A stretch of 64,000 bases of DNA from Bacteroidales bacterium (lineage in GTDB: Bacteria > Bacteroidota > Bacteroidia > Bacteroidales > P3), in assembly GCA_017439185.1 (NCBI GenBank), contig JAFRTM010000008.1:1-64000 (forward strand), in the 5' to 3' direction. This document shows, piece by piece, positions 32,986-40,124 of the stretch (its first letter is position 1; each line of letters opens with the position of its first letter). Below the pieces are notes generated by a model, which worked only from the letters and a program-made list of their open reading frames with translations, searched no databases and was not told where the DNA came from. Made by a program: the position numbers and the translations under genes.

Positions 32986-33510
32986 TCCTCGCGGCTCACT
33001 TTCTCTTGGCGGTTGGCAACCTCCCGTGCCGACTATCCGGCCTTTCTGTCTTGATATTCTCTATTATTAAAGACCGGTTTTGCCCATTTTGAAATCATTT
33101 TTCGCAAAAAAAAATTCATACACACCAAAGTAATACCAATATCGAATGTGTGTCGAATGTGTGTAATATGAGAGTAGTCTAAAGCATCGGCGCTTGTCCG
33201 CTCTCGCTTGCAATTAAAAATATAGTGCTGTCTTACAACCCCTTAGAAAAATTTTACCATCAAAAACACTTTCAAAAACCCCCTTTTCGGTCTTTAATAA
33301 TAGATAAGACATTGTTGGAAGTTCTGCACCCCCTCCGCGACATTATCGCAAGTGGATTGATAAGTCGCTGATAATAAATAAACATTAAAAGGGCTTATTT
33401 TAGACAAAAAACGATTCAAAAGAGAGCAGACGTACCTGTAGTCGAGGTAGAAGAGATGGAATATAATTGAAAATAATGAGAAAAAATGGTGTGGAATTAA
33501 AAAAAATGTG
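32986..33510. other. AT-rich spacer without recognisable genes
   Basis: About 525 bp with many A/T runs and no open frame that looks coding. It may contain the left boundary of the inserted island; I saw no clear inverted or direct repeat marking an end. Confidence 0.5.
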
Positions 33511-33518
33511 TATCTTTG
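33511..33518 (+). promoter_or_regulatory. Promoter -7 box of the methyltransferase island
   Basis: TATCTTTG fits TAnnTTTG and is identical to those at 22711, 32169 and 43586. The -33 region (ATGGTGTGG) is weak. A transcript from here would carry a leader of about 265 nt before the methyltransferase. Confidence 0.6.
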
Positions 33519-33631
33519 CAGTGCGAAATAATGTGTGCATTATAATGTAAACAATTATAAAAAAGGATAATAAAAAGTATAGAACAGAAAAAGTAAAAGA
33601 AACCGAGTATAGAACATCCTTGATTGGCTGA

Positions 33632-33790
33632 GGATACCGAATTAGCACTTCAAAAAGAATCAGCGGTCAGGCGAACACGGATGCGCTCAAACATTAGGGC
33701 GTGGAATGTGGTTGTCGTCTGATTGGTAGTGCTAACCACGGTATCCCGATCGCATACACGCCCTTTCTAAAAACAAAGAAAGGGCTTTTT
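33632..33790 (+). ncRNA. Structured leader RNA with terminator-like hairpin
   Basis: Three nested helices are perfect by eye: GGATACCG (33632-33639) with CGGTATCC (33739-33746), TTAGCACT (33642-33649) with AGTGCTAA (33728-33735), and AATCAG (33658-33663) with CTGATT (33719-33724). An inner hairpin pairs TGCGCTC (33682-33688) with GGGCGTG (33697-33703). AGGGCGTG (33696-33703) can instead pair with CACGCCCT (33757-33764), a pseudoknot. That downstream strand is also part of the 5' arm of a terminator, GCCCTTTC (33760-33767) with GAAAGGGC (33778-33785), followed by TTTTT. Pseudoknot and terminator are mutually exclusive, the layout of an attenuator or riboswitch. It matches no family I recognise. 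It could also be an independent small RNA. Confidence 0.65.
33760..33790 (+). terminator. Terminator-like hairpin ending in the methyltransferase start region
   Basis: GCCCTTTC and GAAAGGGC flank an A-rich loop and are followed by TTTTTAA, 2 bp before ATG 33793. It is probably conditional, since the gene directly downstream has no other promoter. Confidence 0.75.
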
Positions 33791-33792
33791 AA

Positions 33793-34896
33793 ATGCCAAA
33801 TATTCAAAAAATGAAGGGTATACGAGTCTTATCATTATTTTCAGGATGTGGTGGCCTCGACTTGGGATTTGAACAAGTTGGAGATTACCGTACGGTGTGG
33901 GCCAATGATTTCAAACACGAAGCATGTATGAGTTTTGAAAAACATTTTGGTAACATTATTGTCGAAGGGGATATAGAGAAGATAAATCCCTATAGTAATA
34001 AAGATGTTCCTGATTGTGATTTAATTATAGGAGGATTTCCTTGTCAGGATTTTTCAATTATTTGGAAACAACCTGGTTTAAATGGAGAACGAGGAAACTT
34101 ATATAAAAGTTTTTTGCGTTTTGTTGATGCAAAAAAACCAAAAGCATTTGTGGCTGAAAATGTTAAGGGCATTTTGACTGCCAATAAGAAAAAGGCAATT
34201 AAACAAATCGTTGAGGATTTCCAGAATATATCTCCAGGATATCTGGTAAAACCGCACCTTTATGATTTTGCAGAGTATGGTGTTCCAGAATATCGAGAAA
34301 GAGTCTTAATTGTTGGTATTAGATTAGATACGGGTTTTCATTTTGAACATCCCAAACCCACACATGGAGACAAAAATGGGTTATTACCGTTTGTTACTGT
34401 AGGCGAAGCCTTAAAAGGGGTAGAGGAAGTTCCGTTCAACAATGAACACATTAATATTAAGGAGCGTACAAAAAAAATTATAAGCTTAATTCCAGAAGGA
34501 GGTAATTTTACAGCAATTCCTGTTGATAGTCCATACTATGTAAAGGGAATGATTAGCCATGTATATCGTAGAATTCATCTAGGGGAACCATCTAAAACTA
34601 TTATAGCTCAAGGTGGAGGGGGGACATGGGGCTACCACTATCCTGAACCTCGTCCGTTGACCAACAGAGAAAGGGCGAGAATTCAATCATTCCCTGACGA
34701 TTTTGAGTTCTGCGGTAGTATAACCGAGGTTAGACGACAAATAGGCAACGCCGTTCCGCCAGTTGGTGTGCATGCTATTGCTTGTGCGCTAAAACCATTG
34801 TTTTTGGGAACTTACACAAAGGTTGATTTATACAAACAGCAAGAAGAACTTATTAAACTACCGTTTGAGGAAAGATATAGAATGATAACACAATAA
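33793..34896 (+). CDS. DNA (cytosine-5-)-methyltransferase
   Basis: Makes 5-methylcytosine in DNA with SAM. Motif I VLSLFSGCGGLDLGFE (about residue 13), motif IV GGFPCQDFS (about 80-88, with the catalytic Cys), motif VI AENVKG (about 121), and the C-terminal motifs IX/X (RIQSFPDDF and IGNAVPP) are complete. The target-recognition region between about 200 and 260 is not identifiable, so the specificity is unknown. Length is 367 residues from 33793. ATG 33811 (MKGIRVLSLF) is an equally good or better start, since 33793 lies in the T-tract end of the hairpin. It is AT-rich and first in a three-gene unit; the next ORF follows after 11 bp with a strong AGGAGG site. Confidence 0.93.
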   Translation: MPNIQKMKGIRVLSLFSGCGGLDLGFEQVGDYRTVWANDFKHEACMSFEKHFGNIIVEGDIEKINPYSNKDVPDCDLIIGGFPCQDFSIIWKQPGLNGERGNLYKSFLRFVDAKKPKAFVAENVKGILTANKKKAIKQIVEDFQNISPGYLVKPHLYDFAEYGVPEYRERVLIVGIRLDTGFHFEHPKPTHGDKNGLLPFVTVGEALKGVEEVPFNNEHINIKERTKKIISLIPEGGNFTAIPVDSPYYVKGMISHVYRRIHLGEPSKTIIAQGGGGTWGYHYPEPRPLTNRERARIQSFPDDFEFCGSITEVRRQIGNAVPPVGVHAIACALKPLFLGTYTKVDLYKQQEELIKLPFEERYRMITQ

Positions 34897-34907
34897 CAGG
34901 AGGTACA

Positions 34908-35957
34908 ATGCCTAGTATTTTATTGACAAAACACCCATCTTTAACAGGCTTCAAATATTCCTCTGTACAGGATTATTTCAAGAAATTTGTAGATAGTGCA
35001 ACAGAATTTAATGTAGCAACCGGTTTTATTTCAAATGAAGCCATTGCAACATTACAACAGATTGTGGCATTCAAGTCTGGCAAAATGAAACTCAATCTGT
35101 TTATAGGAATGCACTATGTTAGCGGTTTTACCAGAATTCAGTACAAGGCGATAAAAGAGTTGAATGACTTTTTGAATGATGCTAAATGTGGTAACATTTA
35201 TCTATCTCCTCACGCCCTATTTCACGGAAAAATGTATTCATTCTTTCACGATAACGATTGCCTTGGGGGATTTATTGGTTCGTCAAACCTAGGAAGTTTT
35301 GTCGGGGAAGATCCAAACTATGTTGAAACAGATGCTTTATTTGTTGGGGAAGAAGGGGTGTTTGTAAACCAAGGTATTTCTAATGTAATTCAATGTTTAG
35401 GAAAAAACTTTGTGGATTTGCCCCCCCTTATGGAATTTATTGAACCAGATAGCAAGTTACTTCAATCTTATCATTATGTCACCGAAGTAAATGAGAAAGA
35501 ATTGAAAACAATCAAAAACTCTCGAACTGACCGAGGAACGTACATTGTTTTAAAATCAGAACCATTCAGTAATTTAAACACCTATTTTGGGGCGGGGAAG
35601 GTAAAGGATAGGTATAGTCCTAGGGGGTGGTATGAAGTAGAGCTTATAATTGGGAAGAGGGATCCTGCGATGGAGCAAATACCAACAGAATATCCTATCA
35701 CAGTTGTAACGAATGATGGCTATAAATTTCAATGTAAAAGACAAGGTACTAATTTCAAAAACTTTAGATCCAGTAATGACTTAAAAATTCTTGGTAGATG
35801 GATAAAAGGACAAATGGAGAACGAAGGTGCTCTTGAAATAGGAAAACCAGTCACAGAAGGTGTATTACAAGAATTCGGAAAAGGAAGAATTTTTCTTGAG
35901 GAAACGACCGTTTTAGATGATGCAGGGCACAATATTTGGTATATTTCATTAAGATAA
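34908..35957 (+). CDS. PLD-superfamily restriction endonuclease (NgoFVII-like)
   Basis: Probable DNA-cutting partner of the methyltransferase. The phospholipase-D nuclease half (about residues 1-190) carries one HxK motif, LFHGKMYSFFHD with H106 and K108, followed by GFIGSSNLGSF (about 122), as in the NgoFVII/BfiI group where two chains share one active site. The second half (about 215-349) resembles the B3-like DNA-recognition domain of such enzymes, with YTFG-type AYF/YSPRGWYEVELIIG. The start is set by AGGAGGTACAATG. The Z1 gene begins 2 bp after its stop. Confidence 0.82.
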   Translation: MPSILLTKHPSLTGFKYSSVQDYFKKFVDSATEFNVATGFISNEAIATLQQIVAFKSGKMKLNLFIGMHYVSGFTRIQYKAIKELNDFLNDAKCGNIYLSPHALFHGKMYSFFHDNDCLGGFIGSSNLGSFVGEDPNYVETDALFVGEEGVFVNQGISNVIQCLGKNFVDLPPLMEFIEPDSKLLQSYHYVTEVNEKELKTIKNSRTDRGTYIVLKSEPFSNLNTYFGAGKVKDRYSPRGWYEVELIIGKRDPAMEQIPTEYPITVVTNDGYKFQCKRQGTNFKNFRSSNDLKILGRWIKGQMENEGALEIGKPVTEGVLQEFGKGRIFLEETTVLDDAGHNIWYISLR

Positions 35958-35959
35958 CT

Positions 35960-37876
35960 ATGTATTATACAGACGAATATTTATCAAGGCTAACTAGTGC
36001 GGAGTTAATAGATAAAATAAAAAAGACATCATCAGATTTTTATGACAATATTGGTAAGATAATTGTATCAAAAAACCAGGTTAACGGTCTTTTGTTGGGC
36101 AATGTTCAAAGTGGGAAAACAGCTCAAATGCTTGGCCTTATCTCTAAAATGGCTGATGAAGGGTATCGTTTATTCCTTTTATTAACGACCGATAATGTAG
36201 ACTTGCATAGACAAACATTTAATAGAGTAAAACAATCGTTACCGTCATTCAATGTTCTTTCAGAACGTGACGAAATAGAGTTTGCAAAAGCTAAGTTGTC
36301 AAAGCCTCTCGTGATTGTCTTAAAGAAGAACAGCAGAGTATTAAGAAAGTGGAAAAATACCCTGGTTAATGCCAATATTTGCCACGGTCTTTATCTTGCC
36401 ATTCTTGATGATGAAGCGGACAATGCGAGTCTAAATACAATGGTTAACAGTAACCGAGTTAGTACAATAAACAAGCATATTCAGTCAATAAAAGATACAG
36501 CAACAAAGACTGTTTATATAGAGGTTACGGCTACACCTCAGGCAATAATACTTCAATCAAACAGGTCAAATTGGAAGCCAGACTTCGTAACTTACTTTGA
36601 ACCTGGTCTATCATATTTAGGAGGTAATTATTTTTATTCTGAGCCAACATCTTTCTGCATACGTTTTACGAGTGAATATGAATTAGATGAAGTGATTTCT
36701 GATGATGATATTTTTTGTCCTGTTGGGCTAAGGACTAGCGTTGCTGCTTTTTTGGTTAATTGTGCGGAAAAAAAACTTAATGGAGAATATAATTGTAATT
36801 TTTTGATACATCCTAGTTCGAGGATAGACATACATACAAAATTCACGAAGACAGTTCAGGATTACTTGAATTTACTTCAAAATACAACTGAAGAACCGGA
36901 ATTCCATGATATTATATTCGAAGCTTGGAAGGATTTACAATCCACAAAGCCAGATATTAATCATTTTGAAGACATTAAAGAAACAGTTATACAAATTCTA
37001 AACAACACTGAATTATTTGTATTTTCTTTAAACTCAAAGAATACGGAAATTAGGGATAGTAGCAATCCGGATGCTCTTGATTTATCAAAAGGATTTAATA
37101 TTATTGTTGGAGGTAACACACTGGGTAGAGGTATAACTTTTCCTCATCTACAAGTGGTATATTATTGTAGGTCATCTCGTACTCCACAAGCTGATACATA
37201 TTGGCAACATTCAAGAATATTTGGCTACGACAGGGAGGGTGGGGTAGTTAGAATATTTATTCCACCTCATTTGTATAGGTTGTTTTCGAGGTTAAATCGA
37301 GCCAATGATATTTTAATAAAAGAAATAACATCGGGATTAAAGAACCTTCAAGTAATATACCCACAAGGAATCAACCCAACGAGAAGAAATGTTATTGATA
37401 ATAATTTGATTAACATAGTTTATGGTGGAGTCAACATTTTTGAATCTTTGCCATTGGGTATTAATACTGAGACAATTGATTCCCTTATAAATTGTTATGC
37501 TGATAGTTATAGCGAACAAGTAGATGCTGATTTGGTCATCCGGCTTCTAGAACTGACACCAAGCCAAACTATTGAAGATTTTGATACTCAAAAATACATT
37601 GCATGCATCAAAAGTCTTATTCAAAGTCGTCCGACTGTCACGATACGACTAATAGTTCGGACAGAACGAAACATTGCAAAAGGAACAGGGACATTATTGT
37701 CTCAGAATGACAGAGAATTAGGGGAGCGATTTAGTAAAGATGTTGTTCTTACAATGTATAGGCTAACGGGGGCTATTGAGAAGGGTTGGAGTGGAAGTCC
37801 TTTATGGATTCCCAATATAAAATTTCCAGAAGATTGCGTGTTTTACGACACAAAACCAAATTATTCCACATCGTAA
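35960..37876 (+). CDS. Z1-domain P-loop ATPase/helicase
   Basis: Large ATPase of the type found next to methyltransferases and nucleases in restriction-modification-like loci. Walker A GNVQSGKTAQM is at about residues 46-56, Walker B with a DEAD-like core DDEAD at about 149, and VTATPQA (superfamily 2 motif III-like) at about 188. The second RecA half includes the Z1 signature GGNTLGRGITFPHLQ (about 383) and DTYWQHSRIFGYDR (about 415). I chose ATG 35960, 2 bp after the nuclease stop, over a TTG at 35936; this gives 638 residues, usual for the family being 600-900. It probably moves on DNA or remodels the nuclease complex; this is inference. Confidence 0.85.
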   Translation: MYYTDEYLSRLTSAELIDKIKKTSSDFYDNIGKIIVSKNQVNGLLLGNVQSGKTAQMLGLISKMADEGYRLFLLLTTDNVDLHRQTFNRVKQSLPSFNVLSERDEIEFAKAKLSKPLVIVLKKNSRVLRKWKNTLVNANICHGLYLAILDDEADNASLNTMVNSNRVSTINKHIQSIKDTATKTVYIEVTATPQAIILQSNRSNWKPDFVTYFEPGLSYLGGNYFYSEPTSFCIRFTSEYELDEVISDDDIFCPVGLRTSVAAFLVNCAEKKLNGEYNCNFLIHPSSRIDIHTKFTKTVQDYLNLLQNTTEEPEFHDIIFEAWKDLQSTKPDINHFEDIKETVIQILNNTELFVFSLNSKNTEIRDSSNPDALDLSKGFNIIVGGNTLGRGITFPHLQVVYYCRSSRTPQADTYWQHSRIFGYDREGGVVRIFIPPHLYRLFSRLNRANDILIKEITSGLKNLQVIYPQGINPTRRNVIDNNLINIVYGGVNIFESLPLGINTETIDSLINCYADSYSEQVDADLVIRLLELTPSQTIEDFDTQKYIACIKSLIQSRPTVTIRLIVRTERNIAKGTGTLLSQNDRELGERFSKDVVLTMYRLTGAIEKGWSGSPLWIPNIKFPEDCVFYDTKPNYSTS

Positions 37877-38150: not shown

Positions 38151-38351
38151 ATGGCAAGAAAGAAGACAATAGACGTGGCGTTGGTTTATGACTTCGACGG
38201 GACACTGTCGCCGTTTGGTACCATCAAGAAGACGGATGTGGAGAGGCATAAGTGGTGGAGCTCGCGAAAGTTGGCATTATGGATTGAATATGTACCCAAA
38301 AATGCAAAAAAGGTATATATTAAACAATTAACAAATCCTTTTGAGAAATGA
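38151..38351 (+). pseudogene. Truncated copy of the HAD gene start, fused to unrelated sequence
   Basis: The first 21 codons (MARKKTIDVALVYDFDGTLS plus P) are the same protein as the start of the intact gene at 38695, and 60 of 63 bases agree, the three differences all being synonymous. After residue 21 the frame continues into unrelated sequence (KKTDVERHKWWSS...) and stops after 66 residues. The leader upstream is also duplicated. Its stop overlaps the next ATG. Confidence 0.7.
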
Positions 38352-38653
38352 CTAACGAAATACAATTCATCTTATACAACCTTCCTAGCAATGAAGGAAG
38401 TGTGCAGGGAGTGGTACGAGACGAAACCATCTGGCTGACACAAAAGGCCATGGCGCAGTTATTCGGGGTGAATGTTCCTGCCATCAGCAAGCACCTGCAA
38501 AACATCTACGACAGCGGAGAACTCAATAAAGATGCGACTATTTCCAAAATGGAAACAGTCGTGAATAGGGGGTTCCGCGGAGAGGTGAAAGAAAATGTAG
38601 ATTTCTACAACCTTGACGCTGGTGTGTGTCGCATCGGGGATGCAAAAATATAG
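38348..38653 (+). pseudogene. Truncated RhuM-family gene
   Basis: Residues 1-91 match the N-terminus of the RhuM (virulence protein) family, with the DNA-binding-like segment IWLTQKAMAQLFGVNVPAIS (about 27-46) and VDFYNLDA near the end. The normal protein is about 330 residues. Here, directly after YNLDA, the sequence joins the second copy of the vsr/HAD leader (GTGTGTGTCGCAT), giving a 101-residue remnant. Confidence 0.7.
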
Positions 38654-38694
38654 GGTACAATTTATAAGAAACATACAAAAATTGATCTGGATAC

Positions 38695-39549
38695 ATGGCA
38701 AGGAAGAAGACAATAGACGTGGCGTTGGTTTATGACTTTGACGGGACGCTGTCGCCGGGGAACATGCAGGAGTTCGGGTTTGTGCAGGCCCTGGGCAAAG
38801 ACCCCAAAGATTTTTGGGAGAAGACTGGGCAACTGGCCAAGGAAAACGACGCAAACGCGATACTGTGCTACATGTACCTGATGCTGCAGGAGGCCAAGGC
38901 TAACAACATATCCCTGAAACGGAAATCGTTCAAACAGTTCGGCTCCCAGATAGAGCTTTACGAAGGGGTGGAGAAATGGTTTGCGAGGATCAACGAATAC
39001 GGCAAATCGATTGGGCTGAACATAAAACACTATATCAACTCGTCAGGGTTGAGGGAGATGATTGAGGGGACGAAGATCGCCTCGGAGTTCGAGAACATAT
39101 ACGCCTGCTCGTTCCTGTACGACGTGGACGGCATAGCCTACTGGCCCGCCGTGGCGGTGGACTACACCACCAAGACACAGTTCCTGTTCAAGATCAACAA
39201 GGGCATCAAGGAGGTGAGCGACAACAAGAAAATCAACGAATACCTGGCCAAAGAGGAACGGCCCATACCGTTCGAGCGGATGATATACTTCGGCGACGGG
39301 GAGACGGACATCCCCAGCATGAGGGTGGTGAAAGAACAGGGGGGACACTCCATAGCAGTATATGGCAACCCCCGCAAGAAGGCGACGGCGAGGAAACTCA
39401 TACACGAAGACCGCGTGAACTTCGCCTGCAAAGCCGACTACAGCGAAGGAAAAGAGATTGACACCACCGTGAGGAAGATCCTGGAGAAGATACGTGCCGA
39501 CTACGACTTCCAGCAGTTGCTGGACTCCCACAAACGAGGAGCGAGATGA
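38695..39549 (+). CDS. HAD-superfamily phosphatase
   Basis: Haloacid-dehalogenase-type hydrolase of unknown substrate. Motif I VYDFDGTLS (about residues 12-20) has both catalytic Asp residues. A helical cap follows (about 25-110), then motif II-like NSSGLRE (about 117), and motif IV in YFGDGETDIPS (about 200). The pattern is close to the phosphoserine-phosphatase-like branch. The length is 284 residues. It overlaps vsr by 4 bp (ATGA), so the two are one unit, and its 5' part is duplicated at 38090-38213. Confidence 0.8.
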   Translation: MARKKTIDVALVYDFDGTLSPGNMQEFGFVQALGKDPKDFWEKTGQLAKENDANAILCYMYLMLQEAKANNISLKRKSFKQFGSQIELYEGVEKWFARINEYGKSIGLNIKHYINSSGLREMIEGTKIASEFENIYACSFLYDVDGIAYWPAVAVDYTTKTQFLFKINKGIKEVSDNKKINEYLAKEERPIPFERMIYFGDGETDIPSMRVVKEQGGHSIAVYGNPRKKATARKLIHEDRVNFACKADYSEGKEIDTTVRKILEKIRADYDFQQLLDSHKRGAR

Positions 39550-40124
39550 CCGACCGGATGACAGCGGAGCAGCGGCACAGGTGTATGTCGCATATCCACA
39601 GCAAGGGGACGAAGCCGGAGCTGAAGGTGAGGAAGTGGCTGTGGAGCCACGGCTACCGCTACCGCCTGAACGTGAAGAGCGTGCCGGGGAAGCCGGATAT
39701 CGTGATGCGGCCCTACCGCACGGCGATATTCGTGAACGGGTGCTTTTGGCATGGGCATGGGGTGGCGGAGCCACCAGTTGAGAGTTTTGAGTTTAAAGTT
39801 ATGAGTTCAGAGTCAGCGGAAAAGGGAGAGTTGGCAAGTTCACGCTGCTGCAAGATACCGAAAACGAACAGGGGGTTCTGGGAGAAGAAGATAAGGAGGA
39901 ACCGGGAGCGCGACCGGGAGAACTACGAGGTGCTGCACCGTAACGGATGGATGGTGATAGTGGTGTGGGAATGCCAGCTGACAGAAGCGCGGCTGGAGAG
40001 CACCATGGCCGGGGTGGAGGGGTTGCTGAGCGAACGGATGCTGGCCCTGCACCGCCACAAGGCAAAAGCCTATGGGAGGGAAGAAGAAGAGAATATGGCG
40101 AATGCGGCGGAGGGGGAGGAATAG
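39546..40124 (+). CDS. vsr: Very short patch repair endonuclease Vsr, with internal repeat insert
   Basis: Nicks DNA 5' of T:G mismatches that arise when 5-methylcytosine deaminates, fitting the methyltransferase 5 kb upstream. Visible are RCMSHIHSKGTKPELKVR (about 12-29), PDIV with the catalytic Asp51, the metal-binding NGCFWHGH (about 64-71), KTNRGFWEKKIRRNRERD (about 106-123) and VWEC with the second Cys (about 143). At 192 residues it is longer than the usual 130-155. Residues about 73-99 are an in-frame insert, much of it encoded by the same AGTTTTGAGTT-type repeat found in spacers, and there is a C-terminal tail of about 45 residues. Whether the enzyme is active is uncertain. Confidence 0.88.
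   Translation: MTDRMTAEQRHRCMSHIHSKGTKPELKVRKWLWSHGYRYRLNVKSVPGKPDIVMRPYRTAIFVNGCFWHGHGVAEPPVESFEFKVMSSESAEKGELASSRCCKIPKTNRGFWEKKIRRNRERDRENYEVLHRNGWMVIVVWECQLTEARLESTMAGVEGLLSERMLALHRHKAKAYGREEEENMANAAEGEE

Follow-up and report, generated by a model that had tools for sequence, protein, structure and literature searches.

What is the role of the structured RNA that precedes a DNA methyltransferase gene in a Bacteroidales genome, and why does the same RNA stand before so many different defence genes? The locus lies in 64,000 nucleotides of a Bacteroidales bacterium (contig JAFRTM010000008.1 of assembly GCA_017439185.1), and this whole stretch is called the window here. A first-pass annotation had placed at positions 33632-33790 a leader RNA with three nested helices and a loop strand that can pair with part of a terminator ending at the start of the gene, and all of its coordinates proved exact when the window sequence was read again. 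To judge from homologous sequences, the leader is a real RNA family whose helices are conserved and covary, and it probably serves as a cis-acting transcription attenuator of restriction-modification (R-M) operons that is off by default. The family, its covariation, the conserved alternative pairings, the terminator, and the position before the gene are directly supported by the comparisons below. The control of R-M operons is mostly attributed to proteins, antisense RNA, and promoter methylation. A conserved RNA attenuator common to dozens of systems would add a new layer of control and would suggest a general cue that switches defence on.

Fold of the leader and its competing pairings

The core of the leader, as matched by our models R1-R3, spans 33615-33763 on the forward strand, on which all window features given below also lie, and searches of the available genome by model and by DNA found this single copy. 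The three nested helices are borne out as P1, P2, and P3. P1 pairs GGATACCG (33632-33639) with CGGTATCC (33739-33746), P2 pairs TTAGCAC (33642-33648) with GTGCTAA (33729-33735), and P3 pairs AATCAG (33658-33663) with CTGATT (33719-33724). The segment 33615-33790 has a minimum free energy (MFE) of -66.4 kcal/mol, compared with a mean of -42.1 kcal/mol after shuffling (z -5.75), and none of 200 shuffles folded as low.

The strand AGGGCGTG (33696-33703) had been described as a loop strand able to pair with CACGCCCT (33757-33764). The pairing is possible, but the strand is not free: in the MFE fold it mostly forms the 3′ arm (33697-33703) of an apical hairpin, P4, whose 5′ arm lies at 33682-33688. 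AGGGCGTG therefore has two competing partners, the 5′ arm of P4 and CACGCCCT, and its pairing with the latter is called the antiterminator below. The claimed overlap of CACGCCCT with the terminator also holds, and the antiterminator excludes the terminator. This terminator (33760-33790), seen both by scanning and by hairpin folding, consists of a hairpin stem (33760-33785) and a T-tract (33786-33790), and a scan of 33400-33850 returned it as the single site, at 33760, where 0.2 sites are expected from shuffles. A second long-range pairing, PK1, had gone unnoticed in the first-pass annotation. Here the 5′ tail CATCC (33615-33619) pairs with GGATG (33679-33683), a strand located in the window sequence and by strand parsing of homologues. 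Since PK1 overlaps the base of P4 by two bases, it would help to open P4.

Conservation and covariation of the helices

The homologues analysed comprise 44 full-length copies from Bacteroidales. Strands were parsed in 43 copies, leaving out the half RNAs L067, L093, and L072 as well as L089, which meets a contig end; the chimaeric copy L053, in which P1 and P2 are broken and no antiterminator strand was found, was parsed yet stands outside the 44. Alignment A7 holds 34 copies and A8 holds 36, the latter omitting L060, L069, L073, L074, L078, L082, L088, and L176 of the 44.

P1 forms at least seven of its eight pairs in 42 of the 43 parsed copies, the exception being the broken L053, and it does so with 15 distinct strand combinations. 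Over 18 unique combinations the mean pairing is 0.94, as against 0.68 with shuffled partners (maximum of 2000 shuffles 0.81); P1 spacing was set to three or four bases, whichever paired best, and the shuffles were given the same choice. In A8, where P1, P2, P3, PK1, and the antiterminator were scored, 94.5% of cells pair and 18 of 37 pairs carry changes on both sides, including 7/7 modelled pairs in P1, 4/7 in P2, and 5/7 in P3 in the register given above. The 3′ strands of all three helices are placed by this covariation, and those of P1 and P2 by strand parsing as well. The A8 covariation score of 0.268 (0.091 in shuffles) was reached by none of 500 shuffles, a weaker measure, the number of further pair types, was reached in three of 500, and sliding the partners by one column lowers pairing to about 38%. 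The model's own structure gave similar results, but there the further pair types were unexceptional (33 and 58 of 500 shuffles). The model used to fit A8 already contains P1, P2, P4, and a portion of P3, so that these counts lean towards the structure. P4 has no pair with two-sided changes. Both P4 and the inner end of P1 contain many G-U pairs, which points to RNA.

The first-pass annotation had made its case depend on the helices being conserved in homologues, and P1, P2, and P3 are both conserved and covarying. The leader has in this respect the conserved, structured, and covarying domain expected of a riboswitch sensor.

A proposed terminator-antiterminator switch

Sequence patterns located both antiterminator strands in 42 of the 43 parsed copies, and all 42 form the full seven pairs. 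One pair is fully compensated in L075 (GGGCGCG/CGCGCCC), other copies show wobbles, and in the divergent copies L153 and L175 both strands have changed with pairing retained, as read manually. Of all positions along the remainder of each RNA, the AGGGCGTG region pairs best with the terminator-proximal strand in 44 of 44 copies. A six-base version of PK1 forms five or six pairs in 42 of 42 copies with both strands parsed (of 43; a long P4 insertion in L060 made the 3′ strand unparsable), and 100% of its A8 cells are paired. All 45 copies that were folded, among them the broken L053, have a hairpin of -6.8 to -21.7 kcal/mol ending at four or more T, in a count made without a shuffled control.

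The calculated energies are -15 to -23 kcal/mol for the antiterminator, -8 to -17 for P4, and -8 to -22 for the terminator, and they are comparable, as a switch requires. P4 and the terminator together outweigh the antiterminator alone, which suggests that the default state is OFF, in energies that leave out the costs of the pseudoknots. As in an attenuator, a conserved alternative pairing excludes the terminator (weaker on A8), and an intrinsic terminator lies between promoter and coding region.

The promoter was read in the sequence. A box that fits the Bacteroidetes -7 consensus, TATCTTTG, is present at 33511-33518 as the first-pass annotation had claimed, and a transcription start near 33525 is a reasonable expectation; for the -33 element, no TTG matching the search pattern was found in the window. 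Across loci, half RNAs included, a TAnnTTTG box occurs within 900 nt upstream in 48 of 50 cases, compared with 439 of 1497 random 900-nt stretches of the same loci, and the distance upstream to the nearest -7 box is 47-167 nt in one set of loci and 333-867 nt in another. At the other end, the T-tract stops 2 nt before the methyltransferase ATG at 33793, and among the 32 loci that have a 5-methylcytosine (m5C) methyltransferase as first gene, 25 place the start codon 0-2 nt past the T-run. The read-through/termination layout proposed earlier stands in so far as a conserved, covarying leader, in which antiterminator and terminator exclude each other, immediately precedes a DNA methyltransferase gene.

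In the OFF state the nascent RNA would fold into P1-P2-P3 and hairpin P4, P4 would hide AGGGCGTG, the terminator would form, and the polymerase would halt just before the start codon. In the ON state P4 would open, the 5′ tail would pair with GGATG, and AGGGCGTG would capture CACGCCCT, whereby the terminator would be blocked and the whole operon transcribed. We infer transcription, the default state, and the direction of switching from the arrangement of these elements.

Several observations weigh against this account. PK1 is almost invariant apart from a CATCT/AGATG exchange in L153, so that its support comes from conservation. The antiterminator covaries little in A8, where 82% of its cells are paired and two of seven pairs show two-sided changes (the 3′ end is truncated or displaced in some rows), and its strands were located by consensus-like sequence patterns, which favours pairing in the count of 42/42. 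In seven of the 32 m5C-first loci the start codon lies 11-196 nt past the T-run. Three full copies have no DNA methyltransferase gene found downstream, where other defence-type genes stand instead. Most m5C genes of the genus probably lack the leader, which was present at five of 30 m5C loci (the best per genome in 30 genomes, with flanks of about 1.5 kb). Finally, R-M systems are thought to need a delayed nuclease, and a single attenuator in front of both the methyltransferase and the nuclease gene would not on its own provide that delay.

One leader before differing defence cassettes

A DNA methyltransferase is encoded downstream in 40 of 43 judgeable copies of the 44 (the DNA behind L061 was too short and its frame broken). 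An m5C methyltransferase is the first gene in 32 of the 43, and a later gene on the same strand in seven (L054, L062, L065, L073, L087, L090, and L092), whose first gene, where scanned, encodes an AIPR protein, an EcoO109I-type nuclease, or an HNH nuclease. The HMM for m5C genes was built from 18 of these same proteins, and Pfam confirms all 32 first-gene cases as PF00145. A genus-wide Pfam search lists six of the seven later cases (G095, G097, G082, G090, G086, and G110); the match behind L087 is the weakest of the seven, at E 3.3e-12 and 4.9 kb away at the edge of the DNA examined. The remaining methyltransferase is a D12 N6-methyladenine (m6A) enzyme of the DpnII type, which comes first behind L159 together with a DpnII nuclease and a second methyltransferase.

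The first-pass annotation had asked whether the RNA always precedes m5C genes, and it does so, with the gene first or later, in 39 of 43 copies and not in the other four. Control of m5C systems only, which the 39 cases had suggested, was rejected after model R2 found a divergent copy before the DpnII-type m6A system. Where no methyltransferase was found, by a model search for m5C genes only, which also served for the half RNAs, the leader precedes an AAA/McrC (McrBC) pair with a McrB-like AAA protein (L105) and a Schlafen group 3 helicase (L103). The third such case is in G299, which belongs to a different family of the order; from reading the sequences, we take its downstream genes to be DUF2971-like and DUF1016-like, with others behind them. 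No m5C gene lies in the DNA examined downstream of the five broken or half copies (L053, L067, L093, L072, and L160), and L160 is followed by an AAA_5 protein and then DUF2357 with a PD-(D/E)XK nuclease.

Leaders that are 98-100% identical precede methyltransferases with 27-46% best-segment identity and no DNA similarity at E 1e-5 (L055/L088, L058/L082, L069/L074, and L076/L078). Unrelated first proteins follow leaders that are 96-97% identical, namely AIPR and EcoO109I-type nuclease in L062/L092 and L062/L065, and HNH nuclease and AIPR in L054/L090. The upstream 380-750 nt are often common to the loci too. On the far side of the cassette, a same-strand gene for the Vsr mismatch endonuclease was found in 16 loci, including the window and loci without an m5C gene found, at 2.7-16 kb. 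Many other loci were too short to judge, and an intact Vsr was not found within the DNA fetched for G095, G005, G019, G006, and G060, with a 30-residue fragment in G019. Genes outside leader and Vsr differed among the nine loci compared. On these sequence comparisons, the pattern can be read as an exchange of defence cassettes behind a single control module. As a separate observation, the methyltransferases of L055, L057, L059, L063, L068, L074, L078, L085, L086, L088, and L094, though divergent, share similar first codons (M-S/P-K-K-K or near), as if leader and first codons moved together.

Possible cues and alternative explanations

One module before many DNA methyltransferases and a few other defence genes implies a cue that is general, such as a metabolite, infection, or growth state, rather than specific to one enzyme. 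A tentative extension of the attenuator is a new class of riboswitch for anti-phage defence, which we regard as possible. Such a leader would sense a small molecule or cell state of phage attack or DNA methylation, release transcription of the cassette, and serve as an exchangeable "on switch" of defence islands in ruminant Bacteroidales. The general mechanism of attenuation is already known; a proven ligand would make the leader a new riboswitch class. As two carriers are named strains (Prevotella sp. ne3005 and Xylanibacter ruminicola Ga6B6, whose records bear no metagenome-bin label), the cue could be sought directly.

A fixed attenuator that answers to no signal and keeps a costly R-M operon weakly expressed through low, constant read-through is rather unlikely. 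It would fit the comparable energies of the competing helices, and the present results contain no sign of regulation by a signal, but a bare hairpin would suffice for it, and the leader has far more, namely a P1-P2-P3 core, an invariant 5′ tail, and two pairings over long distances.

We consider it distinctly unlikely that the leader is an S-adenosylmethionine (SAM) or S-adenosylhomocysteine (SAH) riboswitch of DNA methyltransferase operons, an idea suggested by methyltransferases of two chemistries (m5C and m6A) in 40 of 43 copies. Rfam holds the known SAM and SAH classes, and no match above chance was obtained in the window up to E 10. In addition, no methionine or SAM-cycle gene is among the annotated first genes, and SAM would serve no obvious purpose in the McrBC and Schlafen-helicase operons.

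Slightly less probable still is a small RNA released at its own terminator and acting on the protein encoded downstream, like the RNA of AbiF or of type III toxin-antitoxin systems. The abiF RNA likewise combines a structured RNA and a terminator before a defence gene (PMC12373285). However, abiF-like RNAs pair with one toxin family, whereas leaders 96-97% alike precede AIPR, EcoO109I-type, and HNH proteins; moreover, the start codon adjoins the T-tract in most m5C-first loci (25/32), and the antiterminator is conserved.

Feedback by a methyltransferase protein that binds its own leader is very improbable. The methyltransferase is the commonest and usually the first product, but near-identical leaders before distant methyltransferases, unrelated nucleases, and AIPR proteins argue against feedback by one enzyme, as do the three operons in which no methyltransferase was found. 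The least credible alternative is a DNA site for swapping defence cassettes, which would explain why different downstream genes follow leaders and upstream DNA that remain similar, and why Vsr often marks the far side, but fits poorly with an element framed by promoter and terminator whose P4 and inner P1 keep G-U pairs, better suited to RNA than to DNA hairpins. Shared leaders may nevertheless help cassette exchange as a side effect.

Comparison with known RNAs and modes of control

Riboswitch and attenuator leaders with terminator-antiterminator exchange usually precede metabolic or transport genes. The present leader resembles them in its conserved aptamer-like core and in exclusive antiterminator and terminator structures directly upstream of the controlled gene, and differs in preceding R-M and other defence operons and in having no Rfam match. 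The earlier remark that it matches no known riboswitch motif agrees with the covariance search of the leader, in which no Rfam family, riboswitch or other, reached its gathering score and matches in the window below that score, up to E 10, stayed at chance level.

A D12-methyl RNA motif near DNA methyltransferase genes was reportedly described by Weinberg in 2017. The likeness lies in an RNA near such genes; no above-chance Rfam match was obtained in the D12-class copy L153 or in the window, and the presence of the motif in Rfam was unchecked.

The abiF RNA (RF03085) and type III toxin-antitoxin RNAs share with the leader a structured RNA and terminator upstream of an anti-phage gene (PMC12373285). 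In contrast, the leader shows no repeats and no fixed protein partner, has a conserved antiterminator, and carries a T-tract fused to the start codon in most m5C-first loci. It matches neither RF03085 nor another Rfam family, and is followed not by one protein family but by PF00145, AIPR, EcoO109I, HNH, McrB-like AAA, Schlafen helicase, and D12 methyltransferase proteins; nor is it conserved with one R-M type only, as a small RNA of a single R-M system would be.

Known R-M control by C proteins, methyltransferase repressors, antisense RNA, and hairpins at nuclease starts likewise sets methyltransferase and nuclease expression, whereas the leader is a conserved attenuator family common to many systems. 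According to one review (PMC12707154), nuclease start sites can be made less accessible by antisense RNAs or hairpins. The main texts of PMC3874152 and PMC12707154, both reviews of R-M control, contain neither "riboswitch" nor "antitermina", and "attenuat" occurs once, unrelated, in the former and not in the latter. The leader RNA is likewise undescribed in the available parts of PMC8040213, PMC2864571, PMC12373285, PMC3874152, and PMC12707154, in a search outside of which many journals lie.

Distribution of the leader and neighbouring elements

By DNA search, 17 of 120 genomes of the genus match the leader, the window's included. Model R1 matched in 15 of 120 genomes of the genus and 16 of 190 of the family, and R2 in 22 of the 190 family genomes, counting half RNAs and weak matches. 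Among 393 genomes drawn evenly across the order, R3 with strict filters found three, again with the window's, and an exact pattern found two. The exact pattern of the 5′ part occurs in 41 stretches among 84,980 species genomes, all with record titles naming Bacteroidetes, Bacteroidia, Bacteroidales, Bacteroidaceae, Prevotellaceae, Prevotella, or Xylanibacter, and several of them the rumen, reticulum, or abomasum of sheep, buffalo, yak, or roe deer. For comparison, 81 of 119 genomes of the genus carry at least one m5C gene at E 1e-20.

Spread of the leader by phages, plasmids, or viruses was considered and rejected. The exact 5′-part pattern has no match in viral contigs, collections of phages and plasmids contain no match to the window leader or the Prevotella-type leader, and the nine viral stretches that a looser pattern picked up do not match R3 up to E 1. 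L158, which stands in front of a lipoprotein-like gene, was excluded as too weak at E 0.008. A similarly weak match in G032 (L161, about 5180, forward strand, E 0.008) has P1/P2-like arms and a terminator-like hairpin followed by a lipoprotein-like gene, and could be a distant relative or chance.

In the window, the leader is followed by the m5C methyltransferase (33793-34896; PF00145, E 2.6e-72), an NgoFVII-type (PLD) restriction endonuclease (34908-35957; PF09565 and PF20731), a PF10593 gene (35936-37876; Helicase_II in PADLOC), and the Vsr endonuclease (39546-40124; PF03852). Two PADLOC candidates are matched between the R-M genes and Vsr (38348-39549), PDC-S05 by an open reading frame (ORF) and PDC-S34 by a HAD-like protein.

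Upstream of the leader, a second structured RNA of about 400 nt (L063:5838-6249, forward strand, z -5.77) begins just past the promoter. It precedes the leader in many Prevotella-type loci, here in 22 (L051, L055, L057-L059, L063, L064, L068-L071, L074, L076, L078, L080-L082, L084, L085, L088, L089, and L091; in L059 only its end). Its Rfam matches fall far below the gathering score, the best being mir-1468 at E 0.021. In two loci it is found without the leader, upstream of a further m5C-like methyltransferase in L116 and of an MBOAT-type gene in L119, both named by reading. A small conserved ORF (MAKYT-DSHITTVEEV... and relatives) lies upstream of the leader in L058, L071, L082, and L094.
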